From: Mycolicibacterium frederiksbergense
GTDB lineage: Bacteria; Actinomycetota; Actinomycetes; Mycobacteriales; Mycobacteriaceae
Direction: 5' to 3'
Length of the DNA: 64,000 bases
Assembly (NCBI RefSeq): GCF_029893345.1
Contig: NZ_JARXVE010000002.1
Coordinates: forward strand, 62,001 to 126,000
Of this stretch, positions 5,578-55,470 are shown in pieces. Made by a program: the position numbers and the translations under genes. The notes beneath the pieces were generated by a model. That model was not told where the DNA came from. It saw only the letters and a program-made list of their open reading frames with translations, and made no database searches. Numbering within the stretch: the stretch's first letter is position 1; the number at the start of each line of letters is the position of its first letter.

Positions 5578-5592
5578 GAGAATAGCATTCTC
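5578..5592. promoter_or_regulatory. GAGAA-N5-TTCTC palindrome (site 1)
   Basis: GAGAATAGCATTCTC, a perfect 5+5 inverted repeat, lies in the divergent promoter region between the SDR operon (start 5540, minus) and the mini-ORF/MeaB gene (start 5620, plus). It is one of seven close copies in the window and is probably a repressor operator. TAGCAT inside it (5583-5588) fits a mycobacterial -10 hexamer TANNNT. Confidence 0.65.
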
Positions 5593-5619
5593 TTGCCGGG
5601 TGAACCAGGGAGAAGGTCA

Positions 5620-5658
5620 ATGCCTGAAGCCGTGATCGTGTCCGCGGCGGCGCCATGA
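5620..5658 (+). other. 12-codon mini-ORF resembling a thiolase N-terminus
   Basis: ATG 5620 follows a strong AGGGAGAAGG ribosome site and encodes MPEAVIVSAAAP, then TGA at 5656-5658. MPEAVIVSA is how many acetyl-CoA acetyltransferases begin, where an R-T/S-P-IG segment normally follows. Here the frame ends at once. The TGA overlaps the MeaB start codon as ATGA, so the mini-ORF could act as a translated leader. It is either a deletion remnant of a thiolase or a chance match in a leader peptide. Confidence 0.45.
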
Positions 5659-6563
5659 GGCGCGGCTCCGTAGTGTCATCGGTGATGGCCGGCCCAAGCA
5701 ACATCGAGGAGCTCATCACCGCTGCGCGCGGCGGATCGCAGCGCGCCGTCGGGCGGTTGTTGAGCCTGGTCGAAAGCGACCGTCGCGACGAGGTGCTGGC
5801 GGTGCTGCCCCCGGCCTCGCCGCGCGTCATCGGGATCACCGGACCACCCGGCGCCGGAAAGTCCACCACGGTGGGTGTGCTCGTCGGTGCGTACCGGGAA
5901 CGTGGTCTGCGGGTGGCAGTGCTCGCGGTCGATCCGTCCTCGCCGTACAGCGGCGGCGCACTGCTCGGTGACCGGATCCGGATGGCCGCTCACATCAACG
6001 ATCCCGATGTGCTGATCCGGTCGGTGGCCACCCGCGGGCATCTGGGTGGGCTGGCCGCCGCGGTGCCCGCGGCGATCCGGCTGCTGGCCGCCCTGTCCTA
6101 CGACCTGATCGTGTTGGAGTCCGTGGGCGTGGGGCAGTCTGAGATCGAGATCGCCGCGATCGCCGATCCGACGGTGGTGATCCTCAATCCCGGCGCCGGT
6201 GACGCGGTGCAGGCCGCCAAGGCCGGCCTGCTGGAGGTCGCCGATCTGGTGGTGGTGAACAAGGCCGACCGTGAGGGTGCCGATCAGACCGCCCGCGACC
6301 TGCGCGCCGAGGCCGGCGTGCCGGTGCTCAAACTCGTTGCGGCACAGGGGGAGGGGCTGGCCGAGCTGGTGGCGGCCATCGATGCCCATCACCGGGCCGA
6401 CACCGCGCAGCGGCGCGCCGCGCGGGCCCGCACCCAGATCCTGTCGTTGGCCCAGACATTGCTGCGTCAGCACGCCGAACTGGACCGGCTGGCCGCCGCG
6501 GTGGCCGAGGGTGAGAGCGACGCCTACACCGCGGCCGAGCAGTTGTTCATCAACCGGCAATAG
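5655..6563 (+). CDS. meaB: MeaB/ArgK-type G3E GTPase
   Basis: 302-residue P-loop GTPase of the MeaB/ArgK group, which in known cases protects or loads B12-dependent acyl-CoA mutases. Walker A GPPGAGKST at residues 63-71, AVDPSS switch segment, ESVGVGQSE and the NKAD base-specificity motif. Compared with canonical MeaB (about 320-335 residues) it is short, and ETVGVGQ reads ESVGVGQ. No methylmalonyl-CoA-type mutase is in the window, so its partner is elsewhere or it serves a different enzyme. ATG 5655 overlaps the mini-ORF stop; an alternative ATG lies at 5685. Promoter region holds palindrome site 1. Ends 9 nt from the convergent flavoprotein gene. Confidence 0.85.
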   Translation: MRRGSVVSSVMAGPSNIEELITAARGGSQRAVGRLLSLVESDRRDEVLAVLPPASPRVIGITGPPGAGKSTTVGVLVGAYRERGLRVAVLAVDPSSPYSGGALLGDRIRMAAHINDPDVLIRSVATRGHLGGLAAAVPAAIRLLAALSYDLIVLESVGVGQSEIEIAAIADPTVVILNPGAGDAVQAAKAGLLEVADLVVVNKADREGADQTARDLRAEAGVPVLKLVAAQGEGLAELVAAIDAHHRADTAQRRAARARTQILSLAQTLLRQHAELDRLAAAVAEGESDAYTAAEQLFINRQ

Positions 6564-6572
6564 CCGAGGGCG

Positions 6573-8222
6573 TCAGGACACCGATTTGCCGGTGGCGGCG
6601 GTGAATCCGCTGCGGTAACCGAACACCAGCGCGGGGCCGAGCGTGCCACCGGCCCCGCCATAGGCTTTCCCGGTCACCCCGGCCATGGCGTTGCCCGCAG
6701 CGAACAGGCCGGGGATCGGGCCACCGTTGACGTGCAGGACGCGGCCGTCGCGGTCGGTGCGCGGCCCGCCCTTGGTGCCCATCGCGCCGATCTTGACCGG
6801 CACCGCGTAGAACGGTGCGGTGTCGACAGGTCCCAGCGTCTGGCCGGCCGGGGTGGCCGCCGAATTGTCGCCCCAGTACCCGTCGTAGGCACTGGATCCG
6901 CGGCCGAAATCGGGGTCGATCTCGGCCACGACGTTGTCGTTCCAGCGTTGCAGGGTCTCGGCCAGACCATCCGGGTCGATACCGGTCTTGGCGCCGAGTT
7001 CGGCGAGGTCGGCCGATTCGCAGAACCAGTCCGGCACCGGGTCGCCCGGATTGACGCCGAGGAATCCGTAGCGCTGCAGGTGCACCGAGTCGAACACGAT
7101 CCAGGCGGGATCGTTGGCGTAACCGATCTTGGGATCCAGGTACTGGAATGCGCCGGCCATCGAGTTGTATTCACCGGCCTCGTTGAGGAAGCGCTTGCCG
7201 GCCCGGTTGACGATGACGCTGCGGGGCCGGGTGCGTTCCAGCCGTACGCTGCGGCTGCGCGGATGACCGTCGATGGTGTCACCGGGGAGCTGCACGATCG
7301 GAACCCACCACGCCTCACCCATGTTGGCCAGATCGGCGCCGTGGGCCATGGCCATCCGCAGCCCGTCGCCGGTGTTGTTCGGCGGTGACACCGCGCCGCG
7401 CATGGGGCCGCGCAGATAGGCCTCGACCAGCTTGGCGTCCCATTCGAACCCGCCGGTGGCCAGCACCACCCCGCTGCGCGCGCGCACGTGGATGTCGGCG
7501 CCGTCGACGCTGATGCGCACCCCGGTGATGCCGTCGGCGTCGCCGATCAGCTCCATCGCGCGGGCCTCGGTGGCCAGCCGCACGCCACGGTCGAGCAGGC
7601 CACGCAGCAGGCCGGCGATCAGGGCGGTGCCGGCCACGCACAGGTCGGCGTCGGGATCGTCGTAGACCGCGTGAATCCGGGCGCGGGTTTCCGCGTCGAT
7701 TCCGACGTTGCTGAAATCGGCTGGGAACGAGGTGATCCGGTCTCGCCAGCCACCGAGCTTGGCCTGATCCACCGGGCCGGCACTCAGCGAGCGACCACCT
7801 CCCGGCCGCCCGCCGGGCAGTTCGGGCTTGTAATCGGGAAAGCCCTCGGCGACGGCGAAGCGCAGATCGCTGTGTTCCTCGACGAAATCGAGCATCGCCG
7901 GGCCGGTCCGCACGAAGGTGTCCACCAGGTCGGCGTCCATGTAGCCCAGCGATTGGGCCTGTAGATAGTCCACCGCGTCGGAGACCGGCAGCGGCCCGTC
8001 GGTGCTGCGGTCATGGGCCGGGATCCACACGATGCCGCCGGAGACCGCCGTCGTGCCGCCGACCGTGGGCGCCTTCTCGTAGACCGCGACCGCCGCGCCG
8101 TTGACCGCGGCGGTGAGCGCGGCGGTCAGCCCGGCGCCCCCGCTGCCCAGTACTACGACGTCGAACTCATCGTCCCAGTGGACTTCGTTGTGCCGGTGAG
8201 ATTCGGTACGGGTCACTGTCAT
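6573..8222 (-). CDS. FAD-dependent dehydrogenase, 3-ketosteroid Delta1-dehydrogenase-like
   Basis: 549-residue flavoprotein of the fumarate reductase/KstD superfamily. N-terminal dinucleotide fold GSGGAGLTAAL, then GGTTAVSGGIVWIP, and C-terminal AYGGAGGTLGPAL, which supplies the Tyr and Gly (Tyr-x3-Gly) that in KstD stabilise the 3-keto group. Predicted to dehydrogenate a cyclic ketone next to the carbonyl; the true substrate is unknown. ATG 8222 is used (GAGAAGGGA in front) rather than the longer frame to 8276 that would overlap the IclR gene. Lies 7 nt behind the IclR gene, so the two form an operon. Convergent with meaB. Confidence 0.88.
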   Translation of the reverse strand: MTVTRTESHRHNEVHWDDEFDVVVLGSGGAGLTAALTAAVNGAAVAVYEKAPTVGGTTAVSGGIVWIPAHDRSTDGPLPVSDAVDYLQAQSLGYMDADLVDTFVRTGPAMLDFVEEHSDLRFAVAEGFPDYKPELPGGRPGGGRSLSAGPVDQAKLGGWRDRITSFPADFSNVGIDAETRARIHAVYDDPDADLCVAGTALIAGLLRGLLDRGVRLATEARAMELIGDADGITGVRISVDGADIHVRARSGVVLATGGFEWDAKLVEAYLRGPMRGAVSPPNNTGDGLRMAMAHGADLANMGEAWWVPIVQLPGDTIDGHPRSRSVRLERTRPRSVIVNRAGKRFLNEAGEYNSMAGAFQYLDPKIGYANDPAWIVFDSVHLQRYGFLGVNPGDPVPDWFCESADLAELGAKTGIDPDGLAETLQRWNDNVVAEIDPDFGRGSSAYDGYWGDNSAATPAGQTLGPVDTAPFYAVPVKIGAMGTKGGPRTDRDGRVLHVNGGPIPGLFAAGNAMAGVTGKAYGGAGGTLGPALVFGYRSGFTAATGKSVS

Positions 8223-8229
8223 TCCCTTC

Positions 8230-8955
8230 TCAGTACAGGATCGCCGATAGTTCGTTCGCTGCTCGGACCACCGCATCCTTGCCGCCCAATACGACGTCTT
8301 CGCGGTGCGAGATGAGGTTGATGCAGGTGGGCGGCGACGGCGGGCGCCGGCGCACGGGCACCGCCAGGCCGTAGGTGTTCGGTTCGATCTCGCCGTGGGT
8401 GATCACCCAGCCCTGCTCGCGGGTCTGACGTACCAGTTCGCGTTCACCGGGCCGCGGCGGCATGCTCGCCAGCAATGCCGCGCCGGCGGCGCCACGGTCG
8501 AGCGGATGGCGGCTGCCCTCGTGGAAGGACAGTTGGTAGAAGACCTGCGTCGGCACGATCACCGCGACGGCCACCTGCTGATCGCCCTCGGCCACCAGTA
8601 GAGACACCGTGCTGCCGAGCTCGTCGGCCAGGGCGCGCAGCGTCGGGATGCTGAGCTGACGCATGTTGTTGTCGAAGGACGAACCGAGTGCGGCCAGGCC
8701 GGCGCCGGGCCGATAGCGGCCATCCTCACCCTTTGCCACGTAACGGAATTGGCTCAGGGTGGCCAGCAGCCGGTAGGCGATCGTGCGATGGGCTCCGATG
8801 TGTTCGGCGACCTGCTGCACGGTCAAGCCGGTCGGCGCCGCGGCAATGGCCGCAAGGGCGCTCAGGCCGCGCGCCAACGTCTGGGAACCGGGCGCTCCGG
8901 TGGGAGCCTCGTCGGTCTTCGATTTCGCCTGCGGCTGGGTTGCCTTGGCCGGCAT
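8230..8955 (-). CDS. IclR-family transcriptional regulator
   Basis: 241-residue regulator: N-terminal winged helix (GLSALAAIAAAPTGLTVQQV, then EHIGAHRTIAYRLL) and the C-terminal IclR effector-binding domain. ATG 8955 follows GGAGG; the in-frame extension to 9009 crosses the promoter region. It is divergent from the ring-cleavage operon starting at 9085 and co-transcribed with the KstD-like gene, so it most likely controls one or both in response to an aromatic or cyclic pathway compound, as is common for IclR proteins of aromatic catabolism. A proline/lysine-rich N-terminal tail of about 30 residues precedes the DNA-binding domain. Confidence 0.9.
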   Translation of the reverse strand: MPAKATQPQAKSKTDEAPTGAPGSQTLARGLSALAAIAAAPTGLTVQQVAEHIGAHRTIAYRLLATLSQFRYVAKGEDGRYRPGAGLAALGSSFDNNMRQLSIPTLRALADELGSTVSLLVAEGDQQVAVAVIVPTQVFYQLSFHEGSRHPLDRGAAGAALLASMPPRPGERELVRQTREQGWVITHGEIEPNTYGLAVPVRRRPPSPPTCINLISHREDVVLGGKDAVVRAANELSAILY

Positions 8956-9048: not shown

Positions 9049-9063
9049 GAGAACTTCATTCTC
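9049..9063. promoter_or_regulatory. GAGAA-N5-TTCTC palindrome (site 2)
   Basis: GAGAACTTCATTCTC lies 21 nt before the start of the hydrolase at 9085, in the 129-nt IclR/hydrolase divergent region. A weaker related inverted repeat, GAGAGTGATGCTCTG, is at 8983-8997, nearer the IclR start. Two regulators (IclR and the factor binding the palindrome) may act here. Confidence 0.6.
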
Positions 9064-9084: not shown

Positions 9085-9996
9085 ATGACGAGCACTGCCG
9101 CCGGGCCGGTATCCGGTTCCGTTTCGGCCACCGAGTTCGAGAGTGTCTGGCGAGACCTGCAGGGCGTCGCGTTCTCGCAGGGCTATCTCGATGTGGATGG
9201 GGTGCGTACCCGCTATCTGCATGCCGGTGACCCGAAACTGCCCGCGTTGGTGCTGCTGCACGGCTCCGGCGGCCATGCCGAGGCCTATGTGCGCAACCTG
9301 CGGTCCCATGCCGAGCACTTTTCGACCTGGTCGATCGACATGTTGGGCCATGGCTATACCGACAAACCCGGTCACCCGCTGGAGGTCGGGCACTACGTCG
9401 CGCACCTGATCGGCTTCCTGGATGCCATCGGCGTTCAGCGCGCCCATATCTCGGGTGAATCGCTGGGCGGTTGGGTGGCCGCGCGGGCCGCTGCCGACCA
9501 CCCCGACCGGATCGACCGACTGGTGCTCAACACCGCAGGCGGGTCGCAGGCCGACCCCGAGGTGATGAAGCGGATCATCACGCTGTCGATGGCGGCGGCG
9601 GAGAACCCGAGCTGGGAGACCGTGCAGGCCCGGATCAAGTGGCTGATGGCCGACAAGTCAAAGGATTACGACGACATCGTGGCCAGCCGTCAGGCGGTGT
9701 ACCGTCAGCCCGGCTTCGTCGCCGCGATGAGCGACATCATGGCCCTGCAGGATCCGGAGATCCGGGCGCGAAACCTGCTGGGGGAGAAGGAGTACGGCTC
9801 GATCACCGCGCCCACCCTGGTGTTGTGGACGAGTGACGACCCCACCGCCGACGTCAGCGAGGGCCGGCGCATCGCCTCCATGATCCCGGGCGCCCGCTTC
9901 GAGGTGATGCCGGACTGCGGGCACTGGCCCCAGTACGAGGACCCCGAGACGTTCAACCGGCTGCATCTGGACTTCCTGCTGGGGAAGCCGGCGTGA
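9085..9996 (+). CDS. mhpC: alpha/beta-hydrolase, meta-cleavage product (C-C bond) hydrolase-like
   Basis: 303-residue MhpC/HsaD-type alpha/beta-hydrolase. Nucleophile Ser126 in GESLGG, acid in TSDDPTADV, catalytic His in CGHWPQYE near the C-terminus, and the HGSGG oxyanion segment at 59-63. Predicted to hydrolyse the vinylogous diketone made by the extradiol dioxygenase encoded two genes downstream. ATG 9085 with GGAGAGGGG is preferred over the upstream frame start at 9004, which would run through the operator. First gene of a seven-gene operon to 17509; overlaps the MhpA gene by 4 nt (GTGA). The gene symbol is by family resemblance. Confidence 0.85.
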
Positions 9997-11684
9997 CCGA
10001 CCAAGAGGTCGACGTCATCATCGTCGGGGCCGGCCCGGTAGGCCTGACCCTGGCGAATGTGCTTGGCATCCAGGGGGTCCGAACCCTCGTGCTGGAGGAA
10101 CGCGACACCCTCATCGACTACCCCCGCGGGGTCGGGCTCGATGACGAATCGCTGCGCACCTTCCAGTCCATCGGCCTGGTGGAGGCAATCGTGCCGCACA
10201 CCGTGCCCAACCAGATCCTGCGGTTCTACGACGGGAACCGGCGGCTGCTGGCCGAAATGGCGCCCCCGGACGCCCGATTCGGCTGGCCCAAGCGCAACGG
10301 GTTCGTTCAGCCGCTGGTCGACGCGCAGCTGCTGGCCGGGCTGGACCGGTTCGAGCATGTGCAGGTGGCCTGGGGTCGCCGGATGGAATCGGCTGTCGAG
10401 ACCGCCGACGGGGTGAAAGTCGAGTTCGGCCCGGACCTGCCGACCGTGCGGGCCCAGTACCTGGTCGGCTGCGACGGTGGGCGCAGTGCCACCCGCCAGC
10501 TCATGGGTGTGTCATTCGACGGCACCACCTCGCCGACCCGCTGGGTGGTGGTCGACCTGGCCAATGATCCGCTGGGCCACCCCAACAGCGAGGTCGGCGC
10601 CGATCCGGACCGGCCCTATGCCTCGATCTCCATCGCCCACGGGATCCGGCGGTTCGAATTCATGATCCACGCCGACGAAACCGATGAGCAGGCCGAGGAT
10701 CCGGAGTTCGTGGCACGGCTGCTGGCCCCGTTCGTCCCGTACCCGGACAAGGTCGACGTGATCCGCCGCCGGGTCTACACCCACCATTCCCGCATCGCCG
10801 GAAACTTCCGCAAGGGCAGGTTCATGCTGGCCGGTGACGCCGCGCACCTGATGCCGGTGTGGCAGGGGCAGGGCTACAACAGCGGCATCCGGGACGCGGC
10901 CAACCTCGGCTGGAAACTGGCCGCGGTGGTCAACGGCCAGGCCGGTGATGCGCTGCTGGACAGCTACGATGCCGAACGCCGAAAGCACGCCCGGGCCATG
11001 ATCGACCTGTCCACCTTGGTGGGGCGGGTCATCTCACCCACCAACCGCAGGCTGGCAGTGATGCGGGACAAGCTTATTCGGGGTGCTTCGGTGGTCCCGG
11101 CGCTCAAGCGCTATGTGCTGGAGATGCGGTTCAAACCGATGCCTCGGTATGACCAGGGCGCGGTCTACCACCCGAAGCCGCCGACGGAGAACTCGCCGGC
11201 CGGCACCTTGTTCATCCAGCCGCGGGTAGACACCCGGGAACAGTCCGATGTGCTGCTCGACGATGTGATCGGCCCTGGTTTCGCGGTGCTGTGCTGGAAC
11301 AACAACCCGCGCGCCCTGTTCGGTCCCGAGGCGTACGCGCGGTGGAAAGCATTGGGCGCGAAGTTCATTGCCGCTCGGCCGCAGACTCAGCTGTTCTGGA
11401 CCGGACATGATGACGACGACGATGACGGATCCGTGGTGATCGTCGGTGACCGCACCGGGGCGCTCAAATCCTGGTTCGACGTGCACGCCGAATCGGTTCT
11501 GGTGCTGCGCCCCGACCGGTGCATCGCCGGGGCCGACATTGCCCAGCGTGCCCCCGAATTGAGTGCGGCTCTGTTCGACGTTCTGCATCTGGTGGAGGAA
11601 GGAGTGAACGGTGCCAGTAGCCCTGTGCTGTATGTCCCACAGCCCACTGCTGAATCTTCCGGGACCGTCGGCCGAACTCCTTGA
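9993..11684 (+). CDS. mhpA: FAD-dependent phenol hydroxylase, MhpA type
   Basis: 563-residue class A flavin monooxygenase like 3-(3-hydroxyphenyl)propionate hydroxylase. FAD fold [11 protein letters not shown] near residue 11-21, CDGGRSATR, and the [18 protein letters not shown] ribose-binding/active-site motif. It would add a second ortho hydroxyl to a phenolic ring using NAD(P)H and O2, giving the catechol for MhpB. An unusual run of six aspartates occurs in the C-terminal domain ([10 protein letters not shown], about 11407-11432). The 3' end overlaps the dioxygenase gene by 74 nt. GTG start 9993 overlaps the hydrolase stop. Confidence 0.9.
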
Positions 11685-12555
11685 CGAGATCGGCTCGGCG
11701 ATCTCCCGGGCCCGGGATTTCGTCGCCGACTACGACCCCGAGCTGGTCGTCACCTTTTCCCCGGATCACTACAACGGGTTCTTCTACCGGCTGATGCCGC
11801 CGTTCTGTATCGGCACCGCCGCGGCCGGGGTGGGGGATTACGGGACGCACAAGGGGGCACTCGATGTCGCCGGTGACATAGCGCAGGCGTGTGCTCAGGC
11901 GCTGTGGGAATCCGGGGTCGACATCGCCATCTCGACGAGCATGGACGTCGATCATGGCACCGTGCAGCCCCTGCAGGAGCTGTTCGGCGCCGCGACTGCC
12001 CGCCCGATCGTGCCGATCTTCATCAACTCGGTCGCCACCCCGCTGGGTCCGTTGTCGCGGTCCCGCGCGCTCGGTGCGGCCGTGGGTGCCTACCTGGCCA
12101 CGCTGGACAAGCGGGTGCTGGTGCTGGGATCCGGTGGGCTGTCGCACGATCCGCCGGTACCGACGCTGGCCACCGCACCGCCGCCGGCGCTGGACCGGAT
12201 CGTGCACGGGGTTCCGATGACCGATGAGCAGCGGATGGCCCGGCAGAGCGCGGTGACCCAGGCCGCCCAGGACTTCGCCCACGGCGAGAGTGCGCTGCGG
12301 CCGCTCAATCCGGAGTGGGACCACAGTCTGCTGGAGATTTTCGACCAGGGCCGGCTTACCGAACTCGATGGCTGGTCCAACACCTTCATCGCCGCCGAAG
12401 GGGGCAACTCGGCCCACGAAATCCGTACCTGGGTGGCCGCGTTCGCGGCGCTCGCAGTCAATGGGCCGTACCGGACCGGACATCACTTCTACCGGTCGGC
12501 ACCGGAATTGATCGCAGGATTCGCAATCAGAACGGCGGTAGGAATCGCAGCATGA
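11611..12555 (+). CDS. mhpB: class III extradiol dioxygenase, MhpB (2,3-dihydroxyphenylpropionate 1,2-dioxygenase) type
   Basis: 314 residues, the same length as E. coli MhpB and similar along its length (CMSHSPL start, [42 protein letters not shown]-like [12 protein letters not shown]). The two conserved active-site histidines fall at His115 (MDVDHG) and His179 (GLSHDP), as in MhpB. The enzyme would cleave the catechol ring next to the hydroxyls with non-haem Fe(II). GTG start 11611 follows AGGAAGGAG and lies inside the MhpA gene. Its stop overlaps the next ATG. Neighbouring MhpA and MhpC homologues support a meta-cleavage route; MhpD/E-type enzymes are not in the window. Confidence 0.94.
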
Positions 12556-14342
12556 TTTCAGAACACTTCGACCACACCGTGGACGTGCTCGTCGTCGGAT
12601 CCGGGGGCGGCGGTATGACGGCTGCACTGGCCGCCGACGCGGCCGGCCTCGACACTCTTGTGGTCGAGAAGTCCTCGCACTTCGGTGGTTCCACCGCGCT
12701 GTCGGGCGGTGGTATCTGGGTGCCCGGGGCGCCGTCGCAGCGCAGGGCCGGTTATGTCCCGTCCCCGGACGGGGTGTTCGACTACCTCAAGCGGATCACC
12801 GAAGGCACGGTCAGCGACGCCCGGTTGCGCCAGTACGTCGAGGCCGCACCGGAGATGATGGACTTCCTGGAGCGCAACAGCGATTGGTTCGAATTCGTCT
12901 GGAAACCCGGATACGCCGATTACTACCCGGAGCTGCCCGGCGGCTCCGCGCAGGGCAGCACGATCAACGTCCCGGCCATCGATCTGCGCAAACTCGGCGA
13001 GCATGATCAGGAACTGCTCGCTCCGCTGGCGTTGGCGCCGAAGGGGATCTGGTTCGCGCCCAAGGATCTTCGGCTGTTCTATCAGATCCGGCAGAACTGG
13101 CGCGGTAAGGCGGTGCTGCTGAAGCTGATCTGGCGGATGATCCGGGCCCGGGTGTTCGGCGACCGGATGGCGGCCATCGGCCAGTCGCTGGCCGCTCGGA
13201 TGCGATTGGCGCTCAAGCAGCACGACATCCCGCTGTGGCTCGATGCGCCGATGACCTCTCTGATCGCCGATGCGGACGGCGCGGTGCTCGGTGCCGTCGT
13301 CGAAAGAGACGGGCGCGCGATCAGGATCCGGGCCACCGGTGGGGTGATCCTGGCCTCCGGCGGATTCGACCACGACATGGCGTGGCGCAAAGAACATCTG
13401 CCGGTGCTGCACAAGGATTGGAGTTTCGGCAACCCGGCGGCCACCGGCGATGGCATCCGGGCGGGTGAAAAGGTCGGTGGCGCCACCGAATTGCTCGATG
13501 AGGCGTGGTGGTTTCCGGCCATCTGCTGGCCCGACGGCCGGCTGCAGTTCATGCTCAACGAGCGGATGATGCCGGCACAGTTCGTGGTCAACGGCGAGGG
13601 CGAGCGGTTCATCAACGAGGCCGCGCCCTACATGGACTTCGCGCACGCGATGATCGAGGGCCAGCAGTCCGGCATCGACCACATCCCGTGCTGGCTGATC
13701 ACCGACATCGACTCGTTCCACCGATATGTGGTGGCAGGGCACCTGCCCATTCCGAAGATCCCGTTCGCCCCGGTTCCCACCGGGCGCAAGGTGCCTGCGG
13801 CCTGGCTGGAATCCGGCGTGGTCGTCGAGGCGCACAGCTGGGAGGAATTGGCCGGCAAGATCGGCGTGCCCGCGCAGAATCTGCGGGCCACCGCCGAGCG
13901 GTTCAACCAGTTGGCGCACGCCGGCCACGACGACGACTTCAACCGTGGCGACAGCGCCTACGACAACTACTACGGCGACCCGACCCTGCCCAACCCGAAT
14001 CTGCGACCGCTCGGCAAGCCGCCGTACTACGCGTTCCAGATCATCCTCGGCGACCTGGGCACCTCGGGCGGTTTGCGCACAGATGAGCACGCCCGGGTGC
14101 TGCGCGCCGATGAGACGGTGGTGAACGGACTCTACGCCGTGGGCAATGTCTCGGCGGCGGTCATGGGCCGCAGCTACGCCGGGGCCGGCGCGACCATTGG
14201 GCCGGCCATGACCTTCGGGTATGTGGCCGCCCGGCACATCGCCGGACAACGAGCTGAAGGCCCCGCTGCACAACCAGTTTCACGAGGTGCCAACGCACCA
14301 GTCCAGGACGACGTCAGCAACCCCTCAGGAGGAAACCGATGA
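12552..14342 (+). CDS. FAD-dependent 3-ketosteroid Delta1-dehydrogenase-like protein
   Basis: 596-residue KstD-superfamily flavoprotein: [16 protein letters not shown] motif near residue 15, [15 protein letters not shown], and the C-terminal [17 protein letters not shown] with the KstD Tyr-x3-Gly. Predicted to introduce ring unsaturation, possibly aromatising a cyclohexenone-type ring so that MhpA can hydroxylate it. ATG 12552 overlaps the dioxygenase stop by 4 nt (ATGA), after GGTAGGAA. The C-terminal 35 residues are a polar tail ([15 protein letters not shown]...) ending inside the next gene. Second such enzyme in the window besides 6573-8222. Confidence 0.9.
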
Positions 14343-15646
14343 AGATTTCGCTGTTCTACGAGTTCCCACTGCCCCGGCCGTGGAGCGAGGACGACGAGCA
14401 TCAGCTGTTCCAGCACGGCCTGGACGAGGTGGAGGCTGCCGACAAGGCCGGCTTCTCGACGGTCTGGCTCACCGAGCATCACTTCCTGGAGGAGTACTGC
14501 CACTCCACTGCGCCCGAGATGTTCCTGGCCGCGGCCAGCCAGCGCACCAAGGACATCCGGCTGGGCTTCGGTGTGATGCACCTGCCCCCGCCGATCAACC
14601 ACCCGGCCCGGATCGCCGAGCGGATCGCCACCCTGGATCACCTGTCCAACGGGCGGGTGGAGTTCGGCACCGGTGAGGGATCCTCGGTCGCCGAGCTGGG
14701 TGGCTTCGGCATCGACCCCGCCGACAAGCGCACCATGTGGGAAGAAGCCCTCGAGGTGTCGATCCGGTGTATGACCGAAGCCCCGTTCACCGGCTTCAAG
14801 GGCGAGCACGTCGAGATGCCGGCCCGCAACGTGATTCCCAAGCCGCTGCAGAAGCCGCACCCGCCGGTCTGGGTGGCCTGCACCCGCCCGTCCTCGGTGC
14901 AGATGGCGGCGCAGAAGGCGATCGGCGCGCTGAGCTTCGCCTACACCGGGCCCGAGGCGCTCAAGGAGCGGGTTGACGGGTACTACAAGGAATTCGAAGA
15001 GCAGGGCGCGCCCATCACCCCCGCGATCAACCCCAACATCCTGGCCATCGGCGGCGATCTGTCGATGATGGTGGCCCGCTCCGACGATGAGGCACTCAAG
15101 CGCCTGGGTATCGGCGGTGGCTTCTTCTCGTTCGGGATCATGCACTACTACCTGACCGGGATGCACACTCCCGGCCGGACCGAGGTATGGGAGCGTTACG
15201 AGCAGGCGGTCAAGGAGGATCCCACGCTGGCCTACGGTCCCGGCCGCGGCGCCATCGGTTCGCCGGACACCGTGCGCGAATTCCTGCGAAGCTACGAGGC
15301 GAGCGGGGTCGACGAGATCATCCTGCTGCTCAACCCGCGCAGCCATGAGGGCACGATGGAGTCCATCGAGATCATGGGCAAGGAGATCCTGCCCGAGTTC
15401 ATCGAGCGGGACGCAAAGGCGGTGGCGGACAAGGTCAAGCGCCTGGAGCCGGTGATCGAGAAGGTGGAGTCGCGGCGCCGCCCGTCGGACGCCCCGCTGT
15501 TCGATGAGACCTACGCCTTCGGTGGCCTGCCCACCGGCCGAGACAAGTTCACCGCCGGTGAGATTCCCGAGGCGATGGCCGAGATCAACGAGGGCCGAGT
15601 CAAGGCGGCCCGGGCCGAGAAGGAAGCCCGCGGGAAGACGGATTGA
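14339..15646 (+). CDS. LLM-class flavin-dependent monooxygenase
   Basis: 435-residue bacterial luciferase-like TIM-barrel oxidoreductase using FMNH2 or F420. N-terminal [38 protein letters not shown] and the NGRVEFGTGEGSS motif. The C-terminal third (residues about 350-435) is charged and extended compared with the 340-370 residues usual in the family. AGGAGG lies just before ATG 14339, which overlaps the preceding stop. In context it may oxygenate or reduce an intermediate of the ring-cleavage route; the exact step is unknown. Confidence 0.87.
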   Translation: MKISLFYEFPLPRPWSEDDEHQLFQHGLDEVEAADKAGFSTVWLTEHHFLEEYCHSTAPEMFLAAASQRTKDIRLGFGVMHLPPPINHPARIAERIATLDHLSNGRVEFGTGEGSSVAELGGFGIDPADKRTMWEEALEVSIRCMTEAPFTGFKGEHVEMPARNVIPKPLQKPHPPVWVACTRPSSVQMAAQKAIGALSFAYTGPEALKERVDGYYKEFEEQGAPITPAINPNILAIGGDLSMMVARSDDEALKRLGIGGGFFSFGIMHYYLTGMHTPGRTEVWERYEQAVKEDPTLAYGPGRGAIGSPDTVREFLRSYEASGVDEIILLLNPRSHEGTMESIEIMGKEILPEFIERDAKAVADKVKRLEPVIEKVESRRRPSDAPLFDETYAFGGLPTGRDKFTAGEIPEAMAEINEGRVKAARAEKEARGKTD

Positions 15647-15662
15647 GAGGGAGCGGCTGACC

Positions 15663-16508
15663 GTGACGGCACTCGATGAGTTGGTGCGCTACGACGGCAA
15701 ACACGTCGTGGTCACCGGCTGCGGGTCGGGTATCGGCGCCGAGGTCACCCGGCAGTTGGGTGAGCTCGGCGCCCGGGTGACGGGTCTGGACATCCGGCCA
15801 CCCGATCGCCTGCCCGTGGCATTCATCGAACTGGATCTCGCGGACCCGGAGTCCGTGGACCGTGCCGCCGGCGCGGTCGACGGACCGGTGGACGCCCTGT
15901 TCAATGTGGCCGGGGTGTCCTCGGGGATCGGCAATCCGCTGCTCGTGGTGCGGGTCAACTTCCTGGGCACCCGGCAGTTCACCGAGGGGTTGATGGCCCG
16001 CATCCCGGCGGGCGGCGCGATCACCTCGGTGTCCTCGCTGGCAGCATCGGGCTACCGCGAAAACCTCGCGACCACAGCGGGTCTGGTCAAGACCCGGTCG
16101 GTCGCCGCGGGCTTGGCATGGTGTGCCGAGCATCCCGAGGCGCTGGCCGACGGCGGCTACCGGTTGTCCAAGGAGGCGATGATCCTTTACACGATGCACC
16201 AGGCCACCGCACTCGGCGCCCGCGGGATTCGGATCAACTGCACCGCACCCGGGGTGACCGAGACGCCGATTCTCGACCAGTTGCGCTCGGCGTACGGGCA
16301 ACAGTTCCTCGATTCGTTCACCACCCCGCTGGGCCGCAAGTCCGAGGCTGCCGAACAAGCCTCGCTGCTGGCGTTCCTGGGCAGCGCGGCGGCCAGTTAC
16401 ATCACCGGCCAGGTGATCTGGGCCGATGGTGGCATTCTGGCCCAACGTGAGTCGGCCGTGATCGACGCTGCCGCGGATACTGCCGCCGACACTGCGCAGA
16501 GGAGCTGA
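15663..16508 (+). CDS. SDR, coniferyl-alcohol/3-alpha-hydroxysteroid dehydrogenase-like
   Basis: 281-residue SDR. GCGSGIG cofactor loop at about residues 21-27, NVAG, catalytic Ser in SVSSLAAS and YRLSK. About 45 residues separate the Ser strand from the Tyr, an insertion shared with 3-alpha-hydroxysteroid/coniferyl-alcohol dehydrogenase-type SDRs. GTG 15663 is chosen because AGAGGGAG lies 9 nt upstream; the longer frame from 15504 is buried in the LLM gene. The last 20 residues are alanine-rich (AAADTAADTAQRS). Ends 2 nt before the cyclase gene. Confidence 0.85.
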   Translation: MTALDELVRYDGKHVVVTGCGSGIGAEVTRQLGELGARVTGLDIRPPDRLPVAFIELDLADPESVDRAAGAVDGPVDALFNVAGVSSGIGNPLLVVRVNFLGTRQFTEGLMARIPAGGAITSVSSLAASGYRENLATTAGLVKTRSVAAGLAWCAEHPEALADGGYRLSKEAMILYTMHQATALGARGIRINCTAPGVTETPILDQLRSAYGQQFLDSFTTPLGRKSEAAEQASLLAFLGSAAASYITGQVIWADGGILAQRESAVIDAAADTAADTAQRS

Positions 16509-16510
16509 GC

Positions 16511-17509
16511 ATGCTTGCGACGATGAGCGACTTCCGTAAGGTCGCCGACGATGTGCGGAACTGGGGTCGCTGGGGCGATGCCGACGAACTCGGCACCCTG
16601 AACCTGATCACCCCGGACAAGGTCGCCGAGGCCGCGGCACTGGTGAAGCGGGGCAAGGTGATCTCGCTCGGTGGAGACTTCGGCTCCAACGGGCCGCAGG
16701 GGGCGTTCCAGTTCCGGTTCAACCCGATCCACGTCATGACCGTGGACGGTGGCGACGCCGAGACACTGGTCAAGTACGCGCCCGAGTGGGCACGTAATTC
16801 CGTTGCGCAGGAGCTGAGTTCGTTCTTCGTTGACAACCCGTTCCGGTTCAACGACGACATGATCACCATGTCGCTGCAGGCCGCCACCCAATGGGATGCG
16901 CTGTCGCATGTGTATTACGAGGACAAGCTCTACAACGGGTTCCCGGCCGATTCGGTGACCAGCTTCGGTGCTTACCACTGCGGCATCGACAAGGTGGACG
17001 GTAAGGGCATTGTGTCGCGCGGGGTGTTGCTCGATGTGGTCGCGCACCGCGGGGAACAGGTGTTCTGCCAGCCCGGTCGACCTATCACGCCGGCTGAACT
17101 CGATGACATTGCTGCCACGCAAGGTGTGCGGATCGGCCGCGGCGACATTGTGGTGGTGCACACCGGCTGGTGGACGCGGTTTCTGTCCACCGGTGACGGG
17201 CACGAGCCCGGATCGGGCCTGGACTGGCGTTGCGCCTCATGGCTGCACGATCACGAGGTGGCCGCGGTGGCCGCCGACAACCTGATGGTCGAAGACCCCG
17301 ACCCGGCCAACGGTGTCGAAGGCACCTTCCTGCCGATGCACATGCTCTGCCTACGCGATATGGGCCTGATGCTCGGCGAGTACTGGGACCTCACCGGACT
17401 GGCCGCCGACTGCCGCGCCGACGGCGTCTACGAGTTCCAGCTCATCGCACCGCCGTTGAAGGTGGTCGGTGCCGTGGGCGCGCCGGTCAGTCCCATTGCG
17501 ATCAAGTGA
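16511..17509 (+). CDS. cyclase-family hydrolase (PF04199 / kynurenine formamidase-like)
   Basis: 332-residue member of the cyclase/arylformamidase-like family. The metal motif HxGTHxDxxxH appears as QAATQWDALSH: the Asp and last His are kept and the two first His are Gln, a variant seen in a large bacterial subgroup. RGVLLDV and GDIVVVHTGW segments are typical. Could open a lactone or hydrolyse an amide/ester late in the pathway. ATG 16511 follows GAGGAG. Last gene of the 9085-17509 operon. Confidence 0.8.
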   Translation: MLATMSDFRKVADDVRNWGRWGDADELGTLNLITPDKVAEAAALVKRGKVISLGGDFGSNGPQGAFQFRFNPIHVMTVDGGDAETLVKYAPEWARNSVAQELSSFFVDNPFRFNDDMITMSLQAATQWDALSHVYYEDKLYNGFPADSVTSFGAYHCGIDKVDGKGIVSRGVLLDVVAHRGEQVFCQPGRPITPAELDDIAATQGVRIGRGDIVVVHTGWWTRFLSTGDGHEPGSGLDWRCASWLHDHEVAAVAADNLMVEDPDPANGVEGTFLPMHMLCLRDMGLMLGEYWDLTGLAADCRADGVYEFQLIAPPLKVVGAVGAPVSPIAIK

Positions 17510-18918: not shown

Positions 18919-18933
18919 GAGAATGGTGTTCTC
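18919..18933. promoter_or_regulatory. GAGAA-N5-TTCTC palindrome (site 3)
   Basis: GAGAATGGTGTTCTC lies 24 nt upstream of the hydrolase start at 18958, between the 13E12 gene and the hydrolase/SDR genes. Same motif as sites 1, 2, 4 and 5. Confidence 0.6.
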
Positions 18934-19788: not shown

Positions 19789-19815
19789 CGAGCGAGAAGC
19801 GGAGCGGGATCGCGC

Positions 19816-32840: not shown

Positions 32841-32855
32841 GAGAATAGTATTCTC
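32841..32855. promoter_or_regulatory. GAGAA-N5-TTCTC palindrome (site 4)
   Basis: GAGAATAGTATTCTC lies between the divergent TetR (start 32784) and crotonase (start 32947). Site 4 differs from site 1 in a single base, in the spacer (TAGTA against TAGCA). TAGTAT inside the site fits a -10 hexamer. Strongest evidence linking the motif to a specific regulator. Confidence 0.7.
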
Positions 32856-32946
32856 ATGACGGGAATTATAGAAGTCCTTTGTGAAGAAGGCCTTCGCGTC
32901 AGATCAGGGCGCCGCCGGGTGGCAGCTGGGAGCAGAAGGAATCCAC

Positions 32947-34607: not shown

Positions 34608-34611
34608 GAGG

Positions 34612-37449: not shown

Positions 37450-37451
37450 GC

Positions 37452-39117: not shown

Positions 39118-39158
39118 TGTCTACCTACCTACTTTCTCTTTCCAAGCCTTCTTCGGGC

Positions 39159-39731: not shown

Positions 39732-39746
39732 GAGAATCAGGTTCTC
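39732..39746. promoter_or_regulatory. GAGAA-N5-TTCTC palindrome (site 5)
   Basis: GAGAATCAGGTTCTC, perfect arms, in the 236-nt region between the divergent CMD/Rieske operon and the amidohydrolase/beta-oxidation operon, nearer the former. Confidence 0.65.
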
Positions 39747-39852
39747 ATTTCCGACTAAGAGATTTCCATCTTTTGTGTCGATGGTCAACCAGAACCTTCT
39801 GGGTTACGCGGCGACCTGGCTAAATCTGCTCGTCAACCGGCCTGGTGATTGA

Positions 39853-39891
39853 TTCTCGCTAGATGAGAAGCTAGTTTTCTCCTATAGAGAA
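39853..39891. promoter_or_regulatory. array of four alternating TTCTC/GAGAA half-sites
   Basis: TTCTC (39853-39857), GAGAA (39865-39869), TTCTC (39877-39881) and GAGAA (39887-39891) follow each other with gaps of 7, 7 and 5 nt, just before the amidohydrolase start at 39926. Spacing differs from the standard N5, so this could be a modified operator for the plus-strand operon. Confidence 0.45.
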
Positions 39892-41221: not shown

Positions 41222-41248
41222 ACGCCAAGAAAGACTAGGAGAGCACCA

Positions 41249-42439: not shown

Positions 42440-42455
42440 GGAGATTTCCAGATCA

Positions 42456-43265: not shown

Positions 43266-43296
43266 CTTCGTGAGCGAGTTTACGAGCGAACCACGG

Positions 43297-44520: not shown

Positions 44521-44540
44521 CAATCAGATTGGAGCAACCA

Positions 44541-45698
44541 ATGCGCGAAACCGTTATCGTCGAGGCCGTCCGCACCCCGGTCGGCAAGCGCAACGGCGGC
44601 CTGTCCGGATTCCATGCCGCCGACCTGTCCGCACTGGTGCTCGACGCCCTGGTGCAGCGGGCGGGCATCAGTCCCGACATCGTCGACGACGTGATCTGGG
44701 GCTGCGTCTCGCAGGTCGGCGACCAGTCCAGCAATATCGGTCGCTACGCGGTGCTGGCCGCGGGCTGGCCCGAACACATCCCGGGTACCACGGTCAACCG
44801 GGCGTGCGGATCGAGCCAGCAGGCGCTGGATTTCGCGGTCCAGGCGGTGATGTCGGGCCAACAGGATGTCGTGGTCGCCGGCGGGGTCGAGGTGATGAGC
44901 CGGGTGCCGCTGGGCGCGGCTCGTGCCACCGGAACCCCGTATGGGCCGAAAGTCTTTGAGCGGTATCGGGATTTCTCGTTCAACCAGGGGATCTCGGCCG
45001 AGCTGATCGCGCAGAAGTGGGGTCTGTCCCGAACCCGGCTGGACGAGTATTCGGCGGCCTCGCATGAGCGCGCCGCTGCCGCCCAGGACCGCGGTGCCTT
45101 TGAAAATCAGATGATCACCGTGTTCCCCGATCCCGCCGATCAGCTTGATCCGGTAGTGGCCGATGAAGGGGTGCGCCGCGGCACCACGGTGGAGAAGCTG
45201 GCCGGCCTCAAGTCGGCGTTCACCGAGGACGGGGTGATCCATGCCGGTAACTCGTCGCAGATCTCCGACGGTGCCGCGGCATTGCTGGTGATGACTGCGG
45301 AAACCGCCCTGGCACTGGGCCTGTCGCCGATCGTCCGGTATCGGGCGGGTGCGGTGACCGGAGCCGATCCGGTGTTGATGTTGACCGGACCGATCCCGGC
45401 CACCGAGAAGGTGCTGCGCAAGTCGGGCGTGCGACTCGACGAGGTCGGTGTTTTCGAGGTGAACGAGGCCTTCGCTCCGGTGCCGCTGGCCTGGTTGGCC
45501 GAAACCGGTGCAGACGAGGCCAAACTCAACCCGCTCGGCGGTGCCATCGCGCTGGGACACCCGCTCGGCGCGTCGGGTGCGGTGCTGATGACCCGGATGA
45601 TCAACCACATGCGCGACAACGGAATTCGCTACGGACTGCAGACCATGTGTGAGGGCGGCGGCACCGCCAACGCCACACTGGTGGAGCTCGTCGACTAG
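44541..45698 (+). CDS. thiolase (acetyl-CoA acetyltransferase family)
   Basis: 385-residue thiolase. Nucleophile Cys89 in RACGSSQQA, VNEAFA, His340 in GHPLGASG and Cys370 in TMCEGGGTANA, so the whole catalytic set is intact. Cleaves a 3-ketoacyl-CoA with CoA. ATG 44541 after TTGGAGCAACC; the in-frame ATG at 44529 lies before the ribosome site. Completes a beta-oxidation set with the dehydrogenases and SDR of the same operon. Confidence 0.94.
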   Translation: MRETVIVEAVRTPVGKRNGGLSGFHAADLSALVLDALVQRAGISPDIVDDVIWGCVSQVGDQSSNIGRYAVLAAGWPEHIPGTTVNRACGSSQQALDFAVQAVMSGQQDVVVAGGVEVMSRVPLGAARATGTPYGPKVFERYRDFSFNQGISAELIAQKWGLSRTRLDEYSAASHERAAAAQDRGAFENQMITVFPDPADQLDPVVADEGVRRGTTVEKLAGLKSAFTEDGVIHAGNSSQISDGAAALLVMTAETALALGLSPIVRYRAGAVTGADPVLMLTGPIPATEKVLRKSGVRLDEVGVFEVNEAFAPVPLAWLAETGADEAKLNPLGGAIALGHPLGASGAVLMTRMINHMRDNGIRYGLQTMCEGGGTANATLVELVD

Positions 45699-45713
45699 AC
45701 AAGAGGACAACGC

Positions 45714-46862
45714 GTGCAGCGCAATCTGTTCACCGAGGACCACGAGGCATTCCGCACGCTCGCGCGGGATTTCATCGAAAAGGAAGTCGTCCCGGCCTAT
45801 CCCGATTGGGAGAAGGCCGGCCGCATGCCTCGCGATGTCTTCAAGCACATGGGTGAACTCGGCATGCTCGGCATGGCGATCCCCGAGGAGTACGGCGGCG
45901 CGGGTATCGCGGACTACCGGTACAACGTGGTGCTGCAGGAGGAGGCGGCCCGGGCACTGGTGACGCTGTCCACCGTGCGTACCCAGCTTGAGGTGATCCT
46001 GCCGTACTTCCTGCACTACGCGAACGACGAGCAGCGACAGCGGTGGTTCCCGGGGCTGGCCGCGGGCACGCTGCTGACCGCGGTGGCAATGACCGAGCCA
46101 GGGACCGGCTCGGATCTGGCCGGGATGCGCACCACCGCGGTTCGTGACGGTGACGAGTTCGTGCTCAACGGTGCCAAGACCTTCATCACCGGCGGTATCC
46201 AGGCCGACTTGGTGGTCGTGGTGGCGCGAACCTCGACCGATCCGGAGAACCGGCGCAAGGGCCTGACGCTGCTGGTCGTCGAGGACGGTATGCCGGGCTT
46301 CGAGCGGGGCCGCGAGCTGGAGAAGATGGGCTGCAAGGTGCAGGACACCGCGGAGCTGTCGTTCACCGATGTCCGGGTACCCGTGGCCAACGTGCTGGGG
46401 GAGGAGGGCGAGGCGTTCAGCTACCTCGGCCACAACCTGGCCCAGGAGCGGCTGACCGTGGCGGTCGGTTCGGTGGCTCAGGCCCGCTCGGCGATCGCCG
46501 CGGCGATCGGGTACACCAAAGACCGCAAGGCGTTCGGCCAGCCGGTGGCTTCCTTTCAGAACACCAAGTTCGAGCTCGCGGCGTGCTCGACCGAGGTCGA
46601 AGCGGCCCAGGCGATGCTGGACCGGGCGGTCGCTCTGCACGTCGACGGCGAGCTGTCCGGCGCCGACGCGGCCCGGGTGAAGTTGTTCTGCACCGAGATG
46701 CAGGCGCGAGTCATCGATCGTTGCCTGCAGCTCTTCGGCGGGTACGGCTACATGATGGAGTACCCCATCGCCCGGCTCTACACGGATGCCCGGGTGGCGC
46801 GCATCTACGCCGGAACCAGCGAGGTGATGAAGGTGATCATCGCCAAGTCGCTGGGGCTGTGA
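45714..46862 (+). CDS. acyl-CoA dehydrogenase
   Basis: 382-residue acyl-CoA dehydrogenase. EEYGGAGI, MTEPGTGSDLAGMRTT FAD/substrate motif, KTFITGG, GHNLAQERL, RKAFGQPVASFQNTKF, LQLFGGYGYMMEYPI and YAGTSEVMK near the end, the layout of the long-chain/isovaleryl-type enzymes. GTG 45714 follows AAGAGG. Last gene of the operon; 116 nt separate it from the TetR gene, with a clear new promoter. Confidence 0.93.
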   Translation: MQRNLFTEDHEAFRTLARDFIEKEVVPAYPDWEKAGRMPRDVFKHMGELGMLGMAIPEEYGGAGIADYRYNVVLQEEAARALVTLSTVRTQLEVILPYFLHYANDEQRQRWFPGLAAGTLLTAVAMTEPGTGSDLAGMRTTAVRDGDEFVLNGAKTFITGGIQADLVVVVARTSTDPENRRKGLTLLVVEDGMPGFERGRELEKMGCKVQDTAELSFTDVRVPVANVLGEEGEAFSYLGHNLAQERLTVAVGSVAQARSAIAAAIGYTKDRKAFGQPVASFQNTKFELAACSTEVEAAQAMLDRAVALHVDGELSGADAARVKLFCTEMQARVIDRCLQLFGGYGYMMEYPIARLYTDARVARIYAGTSEVMKVIIAKSLGL

Positions 46863-54607: not shown

Positions 54608-55360
54608 ATGAATACACCGCTGCAGGGCCGCAGGATTCTGGTCACCGGCGGCGCCTCGGGTATCGGGGCCGCTGCCGTGGACGTGCTCGGTGCCGCGGGC
54701 GCGCACGTAGTAGCCACCTATCACCAGACGCCGCCGCCGGACCGCCGCGGGGTGAGCTGGTTGCAGTGCGACGTCAGGGATGCCGTCGCGGTCGATGTCA
54801 TGGTGGCTTCGGCGGTGCACACGATGGGTGGGCTGGACGTGCTGGTGCACGCGGCGGGCGTGTGGCAGCCGGGCATTCCGGGGCAGATCGATGCTGCTGG
54901 TATCGACCATCTCGTCGATACCAACCTGAAGGCCACCATCTTCACCAACCAGGCCGCACATGCCGCCATGCGCCAGACCGGCGGGCGAATCATCAACTTC
55001 GGCTCGGCCGAGGCTGTGATGGGTAGCCCGATCTCGGCGGTGTATGCGGCCACCAAAGGGGCGGTGCAGGCCTGGACCCGCTCGGCTGCCAAGGCTTGGG
55101 CGGCCGAGCGGGTAACGGTGGTGGCGCTGGCGCCCGCGGTCGAGACCCCCGGCGCGGACCGGCTGCGGGACTTCCTTGGACCCGAGGTGGCCAAGCACAT
55201 CGACCAGCAGCTGAAGATGACGATCCCATTGGGTGGCGCGCTCGGTGACCCGGCTCGTGATCTCGGGCCGGTTCTGGTGTTCCTGGCCGACGAGGGCGCA
55301 GGCTTCATCACCGGCCAGTTGATCGCTGTCGACGGCGGGCTGGCGATGCTGGGCGGGTAG
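54608..55360 (+). CDS. short-chain dehydrogenase/reductase
   Basis: 250-residue SDR. TGGASGIG at about residues 13-20, HAAG in place of NNAG, Ser in NFGSAEA and YAATK. Two modest departures, the His-Ala-Ala-Gly and the GSAE active strand, make the substrate group unclear. Divergent from the TetR; 140 nt before the P450 at 55501, which has its own promoter. Confidence 0.9.
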   Translation: MNTPLQGRRILVTGGASGIGAAAVDVLGAAGAHVVATYHQTPPPDRRGVSWLQCDVRDAVAVDVMVASAVHTMGGLDVLVHAAGVWQPGIPGQIDAAGIDHLVDTNLKATIFTNQAAHAAMRQTGGRIINFGSAEAVMGSPISAVYAATKGAVQAWTRSAAKAWAAERVTVVALAPAVETPGADRLRDFLGPEVAKHIDQQLKMTIPLGGALGDPARDLGPVLVFLADEGAGFITGQLIAVDGGLAMLGG

Positions 55361-55366
55361 CCCGGC

Positions 55367-55381
55367 GAGAATCGAATTCTT
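55367..55381. promoter_or_regulatory. GAGAA-N5-TTCTT near-palindrome (site 6a)
   Basis: GAGAATCGAATTCTT matches the recurring motif at 9 of 10 arm positions, 120 nt before the P450 start. Confidence 0.45.
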
Positions 55382-55455
55382 GCAGCTCAACGTGCCTAGC
55401 TGGAGGTCTGGCGTTGACGGGTAACCGCCGCTGTGGAAATGTTATGTTCATTGAC

Positions 55456-55470
55456 GAGAGGCGCATTCTC
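55456..55470. promoter_or_regulatory. GAGAG-N5-TTCTC near-palindrome (site 6b) in P450 promoter
   Basis: GAGAGGCGCATTCTC, 9 of 10 arm positions. TTGACG (55451-55456) immediately before it is a good -35; TACAGT (55472-55477) is a possible -10 with a short 15-nt spacer. A protein bound here would cover the promoter of the P450-ferredoxin operon. Confidence 0.55.

Follow-up and report, generated by a model that had tools for sequence, protein, structure and literature searches.

A palindrome clustered at catabolic promoters in Mycolicibacterium frederiksbergense and the TetR regulator predicted to bind it

Palindrome sites and the genes beside them

The DNA examined here is a 64,000-nucleotide stretch of Mycolicibacterium frederiksbergense (the window), corresponding to positions 62001-126000 of contig NZ_JARXVE010000002.1 (C2) in a genome of 6.29 Mb and 25 contigs; subtracting 62000 from a C2 coordinate gives the window coordinate. 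The window holds several catabolic operons, a gene for a TetR-type regulator that we call TetR-A (32065-32784, minus strand; 239 aa from the ATG at 32784), and repeated copies of a palindrome for which TetR-A is the likely binder. Genes were called with our own codon-bias script, in which start sites may err by some codons, and a site was counted as intergenic when its centre lay outside every called gene.

The palindrome was originally predicted as GAGAA-N5-TTCTC, and the positions given for it were exact: perfect copies start at 5578, 9049, 18919, 32841 and 39732, and one-mismatch copies at 32048, 55367 and 55456. Four further one-mismatch copies are present, two in coding sequence (4827 and 16260) and two intergenic (31800 and 39865), which brings the window to 12 copies with up to one mismatch versus 0.82 expected (standard deviation 0.91, maximum 4) from 100 dinucleotide shuffles. 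In a census of all palindromes with 5- and 6-base arms over C2:61-178 kb (5-base arms with spacers of 0-11), ordered by intergenic copies, GAGAA-N5-TTCTC ranked first with 8/8 copies intergenic and also ranked first in the window alone (5/5), while GAGAAT-N3-ATTCTC, 5/5 intergenic, topped the 6-base-arm list. The predicted palindrome is real, but this longer pattern is its better core, with 12 specified bases rather than 10. Copies 4827 and 16260, which lie within coding genes and have three and two mismatches respectively to the 12-base core, were judged to be background. The whole genome contains 13 perfect copies of GAGAA-N5-TTCTC, of which 8 are in C2:61-178 kb, one is intergenic at C2:356837, and four lie outside C2; the last four were also judged background, three being in coding sequence and one in an intergenic position over 450 bp away from each called neighbour.

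When up to two mismatches to the 12-base core were allowed, 94 sites were found genome-wide as against 13 for a reversed control pattern. Twenty of these fall in C2:61-178 kb, where the remainder of the genome predicts about 1.4 per 117 kb; 2 are in the rest of C2:1-365000 and 72 are spread over the other roughly 5.9 Mb. Although DNA in C2:61-178 kb is 92% coding, 19 of its 20 sites are intergenic, with 16260 as the exception. The density in coding DNA is thus far from equal to that between genes, and the sites occupy promoters rather than coding sequence at a frequency above chance, as in a regulon shared by several operons. The palindrome is clustered, mostly intergenic and conserved.

The operator GAGAATAGCATTCTC at 5578-5592 is accompanied by a weaker second palindrome (8/12 matches to the core) 22 bp away at 5556-5570. 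It separates two short-chain dehydrogenase/reductase (SDR) genes at 4026-5540 (minus strand; 4776-5540 assigned by Pfam and 4026-4766 by eye) from a MeaB-type GTPase gene at 5655-6563 (plus strand), all putative targets. The operator at 9049-9063 stands between an IclR regulator gene (8230-8955, minus strand), which with a 3-ketosteroid-dehydrogenase (KSTD)-like flavoprotein gene (NCBIfam matches below cut-off) makes up a group of possible targets at 6573-8955, and a ring-cleavage operon at 9085-17509 (plus strand). This operon encodes a hydrolase, an MhpA-like hydroxylase, an MhpB-like extradiol dioxygenase, a KSTD-like flavoprotein, a luciferase-like monooxygenase, an SDR (by eye) and one further protein. 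Next to the right, the operator at 18919-18933 is upstream of an alpha/beta-hydrolase gene starting at 18958 and an SDR gene (by eye) starting at 19816 (18958-20625, plus strand).

In the gap between TetR-A and a mycofactocin-coupled SDR gene (30819-31652, minus strand; TIGR03971, over cut-off) lie a tandem operator at 31778-31814, made up of 31800-31814 (CAGAATCATGTTCTC) and a weaker palindrome at 31778-31792, and a further operator at 32048-32062. The latter had been set apart as the single copy outside a promoter region; while promoter placement holds for the other copies named with it, that exception does not, since 32048 is just past the TetR-A stop codon and about 400 bp upstream of the SDR gene, in one gap with 31800. 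A site with up to one mismatch is present 700-1500 bp past the start of the TetR-A open reading frame (ORF) in 51 of 80 loci of relatives; this set comprises the best 80 of 382 related stretches in named genomes, at 82-94% identity, and therefore the closest relatives only. On the other side of TetR-A, the operator GAGAATAGTATTCTC (32841-32855) occupies the promoter shared with the divergent enoyl-CoA hydratase (crotonase) gene at 32881-33729 (plus strand), with a second palindrome 22 bp away at 32819-32833.

The operator at 39732-39746 lies between two putative target operons. Leftward from 39689 (33810-39689, minus strand) are genes for a CMD-domain protein, a Rieske oxygenase alpha subunit, a small ORF product, an amidohydrolase-like protein, a protein with a weak oxygenase small-subunit match and two acyl-CoA dehydrogenases; rightward (39926-46862, plus strand) are an amidohydrolase, an acyl-CoA dehydrogenase and a thiolase assigned by computation and an SDR, a CoA-transferase-like protein and a second acyl-CoA dehydrogenase assigned by eye. 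A 37-bp tandem at 39843-39879, with inner half-sites ATTCTC-N7-GAGAAG and including the one-mismatch copy 39865, is upstream of the amidohydrolase gene at 39926. Two last operators, at 55367-55381 (one mismatch) and 55456-55470 (one mismatch to GAGAA-N5-TTCTC, two to the longer core), precede a cytochrome P450 gene and a small downstream ORF, ferredoxin-like by eye (55501-56984, plus strand). The hydrolase-SDR pair at 18958-20625, the mycofactocin-coupled SDR, the crotonase and the P450 with its small ORF are likewise putative targets. The MhpA- and MhpB-type proteins exceed NCBIfam cut-offs, and domain matches were also obtained for MeaB and for the Rieske, extradiol dioxygenase, amidohydrolase and P450 proteins.

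Sites in C2:61-178 kb fall in 16 intergenic regions, ten with a site of up to one mismatch and six on two-mismatch sites only. The proposal that separate catabolic operons form one regulon was supported, but its extent had been set too small, as the regions cover about 115 kb and reach well outside the window. From left to right, in C2 coordinates, they are 61750 (ferredoxin/AMP-ligase), 67578 (SDR/MeaB), 71049 (IclR/ring cleavage), 80919 (hydrolase-SDR), 93800 and 94048 (mycofactocin-coupled SDR), 94841 (TetR-A/crotonase), 101732 with the pair at 101843 (CMD-Rieske/amidohydrolase), 117367 and 117456 (P450), the perfect site 132707 (amidohydrolase/acyl-CoA dehydrogenase), 152035 and 152190 (SDR/aldehyde dehydrogenase, followed by a CoA-transferase-like gene and yrbE/mce-like genes), 165624 with 165734 and, separately, 167273 (two small exported-protein regions), and the remaining four at 171136, 172582, 174171 and 177023. 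The yrbE/mce, AMP-ligase, CoA-transferase and exported-protein labels were assigned by eye from protein starts. Among the two-mismatch regions, 152035/152190, 165624, 171136 and 172582 also hold a tandem pair of half-sites, while 177023 holds nothing more. A 395-bp gap separates the aldehyde dehydrogenase gene from the mce-like genes, which may share its transcript. Methylmalonyl-CoA-mutase-like and B12-binding proteins, subunits of a B12-dependent acyl-CoA mutase, are encoded at C2:57478-59387, in the regulon area that also contains the MeaB-type gene.

Taken together, the CoA ligases, acyl-CoA dehydrogenases, hydratases, thiolase, P450, Rieske oxygenase and MhpA/MhpB-like ring-cleavage enzymes, with genes leading towards an mce transporter, suggest that the regulon probably serves to take up and degrade a lipid-like compound that bears a ring.

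TetR-A as the candidate binder

TetR-A belongs to the TetR family by its TetR_N helix-turn-helix domain, which scores 30.9 bits versus a Pfam cut-off of 24. Its closest named relatives are in Mycolicibacterium and Mycobacterium species. As is a trait of the TetR family, the palindrome stands in the promoter of the regulator's own gene: a perfect core was found there in 80/80 named loci as well as in M. frederiksbergense. Aligned over these 81 loci, 14 of the 15 positions are invariant and the central base alone varies; the second palindrome lies in the flank on the TetR-A side, and this flank too is well conserved. The DNA-binding segment of TetR-A is nearly invariant among 23 orthologues.

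We then compared the occurrence of TetR-A and the motif in 148 genomes of the genus, counting TetR-A at an identity of at least 76% among matches at E <= 1e-20, and in 298 genomes at order level, with the stricter E <= 1e-40. In the genus sample TetR-A was found in 127 genomes and a perfect core in 127, with both in 126, neither in 20, TetR-A only in one and the motif only in one (Fisher p = 1.6e-22, kinship ignored). The genome with TetR-A and no perfect copy (G049) has a one-mismatch site, GAGAACGCTATTCTC, upstream of TetR-A, and the single copy in the genome with the motif and no TetR-A (G038) is inside a called coding gene. Gene order also differs among loci. In G146, TetR-A is divergent from an orthologue of the acyl-CoA dehydrogenase at C2:132756 rather than from the crotonase, and sites accompany TetR-A, the SDR orthologue and the ferredoxin/ligase orthologues.

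At order level TetR-A was detected in 42/298 genomes, six of them in two other genera. Each of the six has a perfect core upstream of where TetR-A starts; five of these cores are intergenic, and the sixth, in G404, reaches into the 5' end called for the divergent gene. A TetR-A paralogue of 57-61% identity in three of the six likewise has the perfect core at its promoter. The divergent neighbour in each is an orthologue of the acyl-CoA dehydrogenase, and in the stretches examined the orthologues of the Rieske operon, SDR and ligase/ferredoxin genes carry sites in a different gene order. In a family-level set of 16 genomes, sites with up to one mismatch number 5-19 in each of the six that have TetR-A and 0-11 in each of the ten that do not. 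The 11 one-mismatch sites of G400, a genome of another genus with no TetR-A at E <= 1e-40, were judged to be background, as none is perfect and they are spread over 10 contigs. Two of the three TetR-A-less genomes of genus g2 have one perfect site (G199) and none (G412).

TetR-A and the motif occur together, also where the locus has been rearranged. The original prediction had named TetR-A as the likely binder, and it is supported by the perfect core in the regulator's own promoter in all close loci, by agreement of presence and absence in 146/148 genomes, by the motif staying with TetR-A in rearranged loci, and by the poorer fit of two rival TetR proteins discussed below. On sequence comparison, the palindrome is the likely operator of TetR-A. 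By our prediction TetR-A keeps its own gene and the 16 promoter regions repressed, and a pathway intermediate, probably an acyl-CoA, would lift the repression.

Other candidate binders and conflicting observations

An arrangement in which several regulators share the sites, with TetR-A controlling a core set and a paralogue or local regulator controlling some members, is unlikely. The site at 9049, in the divergent promoter of the IclR gene 8230-8955, would be an example of a locally controlled member. Some genomes carry two TetR-A copies of about 80% identity, and in three genomes of another genus (L163, L165 and L167) the paralogue of 57-61% identity, which lies near an mce-like operon, carries the motif at its promoter. 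The palindrome upstream of korA also persists in two genomes that lack TetR-A, as described below. M. frederiksbergense itself, however, has one TetR-A match at E <= 1e-40, a second appearing only at the looser 1e-20, and across the whole stretch a single motif heads the ranking.

Binding by TetR-B, a single TetR encoded at C2:168826-169431, is very improbable. TetR-B is found in 125/148 genomes, nearly the same set as TetR-A: it is missing from 23 genomes, namely the 21 that lack TetR-A together with G022 and G056, three of the 23 being inferred from absence among the matches. In G049 the one-mismatch site sits between TetR-A and TetR-B and thus in the promoters of both, and the two TetR-A genomes that lack TetR-B (G022 and G056) have one perfect site each. 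Co-occurrence alone cannot separate the two regulators, and it was the different palindrome in its promoters that led us to set TetR-B aside. In the M. frederiksbergense TetR-B promoter and 20 others picked from the 125 genomes (G049 excluded), the best match to the core is 7-9/12 in 21/21, whereas all 21 carry TGCT-N2-GCA-N2-TGCT-N-AGCA, which has one full match in C2:1-365000. Moreover, tblastn of 27 stretches from five other-genus TetR-A genomes, a partial coverage of those genomes, gave one TetR-B match (55%, G388). The TGCT-type palindrome, which has the same form in 20/20 relatives examined, is probably TetR-B's own operator. In M. frederiksbergense it is the 20-bp palindrome TGCTGAGCACTTGCTTAGCA at C2:168715-168734 (L022:3715-3734), outside the window.

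Least likely of all is an Mce3R-like tandem-TetR protein (C2:134964-136277), whose gene is in the same cluster about 2 kb from the perfect site C2:132707 with an mce-like operon nearby and is found in 99/148 genomes, all with the motif and TetR-A, but which we rejected because it is missing from 28/127 TetR-A genomes, 27 of which have the motif; there is also no site with up to two mismatches between C2:132721 and C2:152035, hence none in its own promoter, and Mce3R of Mycobacterium tuberculosis is described as binding 25-bp asymmetric, non-palindromic sites (PMC11667970).

Several observations weigh against TetR-A as the binder, among them the near-identical distribution of TetR-B. The co-occurrence statistic takes no account of kinship, and the regulator and its targets may be lost together. 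In the 81 aligned loci, conservation is not confined to the palindrome: the flank on the TetR-A side shares it, the opposite flank much less. Six of the 16 regions depend on two-mismatch sites. In G404, the site at a second TetR-A copy (63% identity) overlaps the 3' end of that copy and not its promoter. In two genomes with TetR-A, G022 and G056, the 19 kb around it are free of sites even when two mismatches are allowed; their single perfect sites are elsewhere in the genome, in G056 upstream of korA. A 37-bp half-site pair is found upstream of TetR-A in G022 and none in G056. Beside TetR-A, the G022 stretch keeps orthologues of the amidohydrolase and acyl-CoA dehydrogenase of C2:101926-104439 and the G056 stretch keeps an orthologue of the thiolase at C2:106541, and a loss of all targets does not account for the missing sites. 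Finally, G006 and G140, which lack TetR-A, keep GAGAAC-N3-GTTCTC (10/12) upstream of korA.

In M. frederiksbergense a perfect copy at C2:356837-356851 lies about 190 bp upstream of korA (a 2-oxoacid:ferredoxin oxidoreductase gene by eye). A site of at least 11/12 was present upstream of korA in 5/10 TetR-A genomes versus 0/18 TetR-A-less genomes that have korA; without the four genomes known beforehand to have the site (our own, G017, G029 and G056), the former count is 1/6. With this mixed result, korA was left out of the 16 regions as a core target.

Tandem spacing, predicted repression and known regulons

Around the 20 sites, similarity to the core is greatest exactly 22 bp away (mean 4.6/12 versus a background of 2.8), and at plus or minus 22 bp matches of at least 8/12 were found at 8/20 sites versus 0.27% of intergenic positions. 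With a second palindrome exactly 22 bp away, the inner half-sites face each other as ATTCTC-N7-GAGAAT. In C2:1-365000, pairs of such half-sites (at least 11/12) with a spacer of 7 numbered nine, all intergenic, and every other spacer from 0 to 24 gave 0-2 pairs each. The 22-bp offset averages 8.68/12 at the TetR-A promoter of the 80 relatives and 5.37 at the site past the TetR-A gene, and it was again the best offset at 40 sites from other genera (4.8 versus 2.9). Not every site is clearly tandem: at a site more than 5 kb upstream of TetR-A, present in 73/80 loci, offsets of 27, 22 and 21 are alike. Upstream of TetR-A in L120:9601-9636 and L121:8976-9011, two palindromes (in L121, GAGAACATAATTCTC and GAGAGTAGTACTCTC) are 21 bp apart, one base less.

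We infer repression, ligand and substrate from sequence. TetR-A would bind as one dimer per palindrome, and at tandem operators two dimers would share one face of the DNA at a distance of two helical turns. The core at the TetR-A/crotonase promoter contains TAGTAT (TACTAT on the other strand), and bases 17 bp further upstream are conserved in both directions. It is possible, and plausible, that this hexamer is a -10 element shared by the two promoters, in which case TetR-A on it would block RNA polymerase and repress transcription in both directions. A pathway intermediate, probably an acyl-CoA, would then release TetR-A and switch on uptake and breakdown as one unit. The monomer model of TetR-A is all-helical and of medium confidence (pLDDT 78.7, pTM 0.68, residues 1-36 below 50), and a search of the Protein Data Bank placed EthR2, YvdT and acyl-CoA-binding FadR proteins among its closest folds. 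With these folds taken from a medium-confidence model, an acyl-CoA ligand is a guess in keeping with the gene set. Identity of TetR-A to the FadR-type acyl-CoA-responsive repressors and EthR2 is just 15-21%. The operator motif of KstR is TNNAACNNGTTNNA.

The closest parallels are with known mycobacterial repressors. KstR2 is a TetR-type repressor of cholesterol ring catabolism with the motif AnCAAGnnCTTGnT in three promoter regions controlling 15 genes (PMC3068626). The two systems share a TetR-type regulator, a palindrome of 14-15 bp that recurs at the regulator's own promoter and at divergent promoters nearby, a set of catabolic genes, and conservation among actinomycetes. The operator itself is unlike that of KstR2 (GAGAATnnnATTCTC here versus AnCAAGnnCTTGnT; PMC3068626), in keeping with the original prediction, which had not recognised it as that of KstR or KstR2, and the 16 intergenic regions, the frequent 22-bp tandem and the gene set also differ. 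KstR controls a large TetR regulon, 83 genes in M. smegmatis, through a 14-bp inverted palindrome (PMC3068626), and resembles the present system in scale and in the form of its operator. The Mce3R regulon is similar in its lipid-related genes and mce transport operon, and an Mce3R-like gene lies in the same genomic neighbourhood here; in contrast to its tandem TetR and asymmetric, non-palindromic 25-bp sites, the operator described here is a palindrome that goes with a single TetR (PMC11667970). BkaR is likewise an autoregulated mycobacterial TetR with two palindromes in its promoter region, but its core, GTTA(N)T(N4)A(N)TAAC, and its branched-chain keto-acid genes are different (PMC3920632). 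The MftR palindrome, T-N2-GGCA-N5-TGCC-N2-A, differs from GAGAAT-N3-ATTCTC, and Rv0081 recognises short words such as GAGAATTC and not this palindrome (PMC4757040). Searches of open-licence PubMed Central papers turned up no recognised description of the motif or of TetR-A; the motif logos of 30 mycobacterial TetRs in PMC4482099, which lay outside this comparison, could include a similar motif if TetR-A has a counterpart in M. tuberculosis. On this evidence, TetR-A and its operator appear to be a separate regulator that would work like KstR and KstR2.

The data are evenly poised on a broader picture, in which TetR-A would be a mycobacterial master switch on the scale of KstR. Acting in pairs of dimers set two helical turns apart on tandem operators of 37 bp, it would control mce import and the complete degradation of a ring-bearing lipid or terpenoid; most sampled species of the genus would share this system, and at least two other genera would carry it with rearranged gene order. 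The analysis provides a candidate regulator, an exact predicted operator and a member list for about 115 kb of mostly catabolic genes, in a genus where 127/148 sampled genomes have TetR-A. KstR and KstR2 provided such a frame for cholesterol; knowing the operator, one could seek the inducing compound with a simple reporter, and an mce-linked substrate would become testable.

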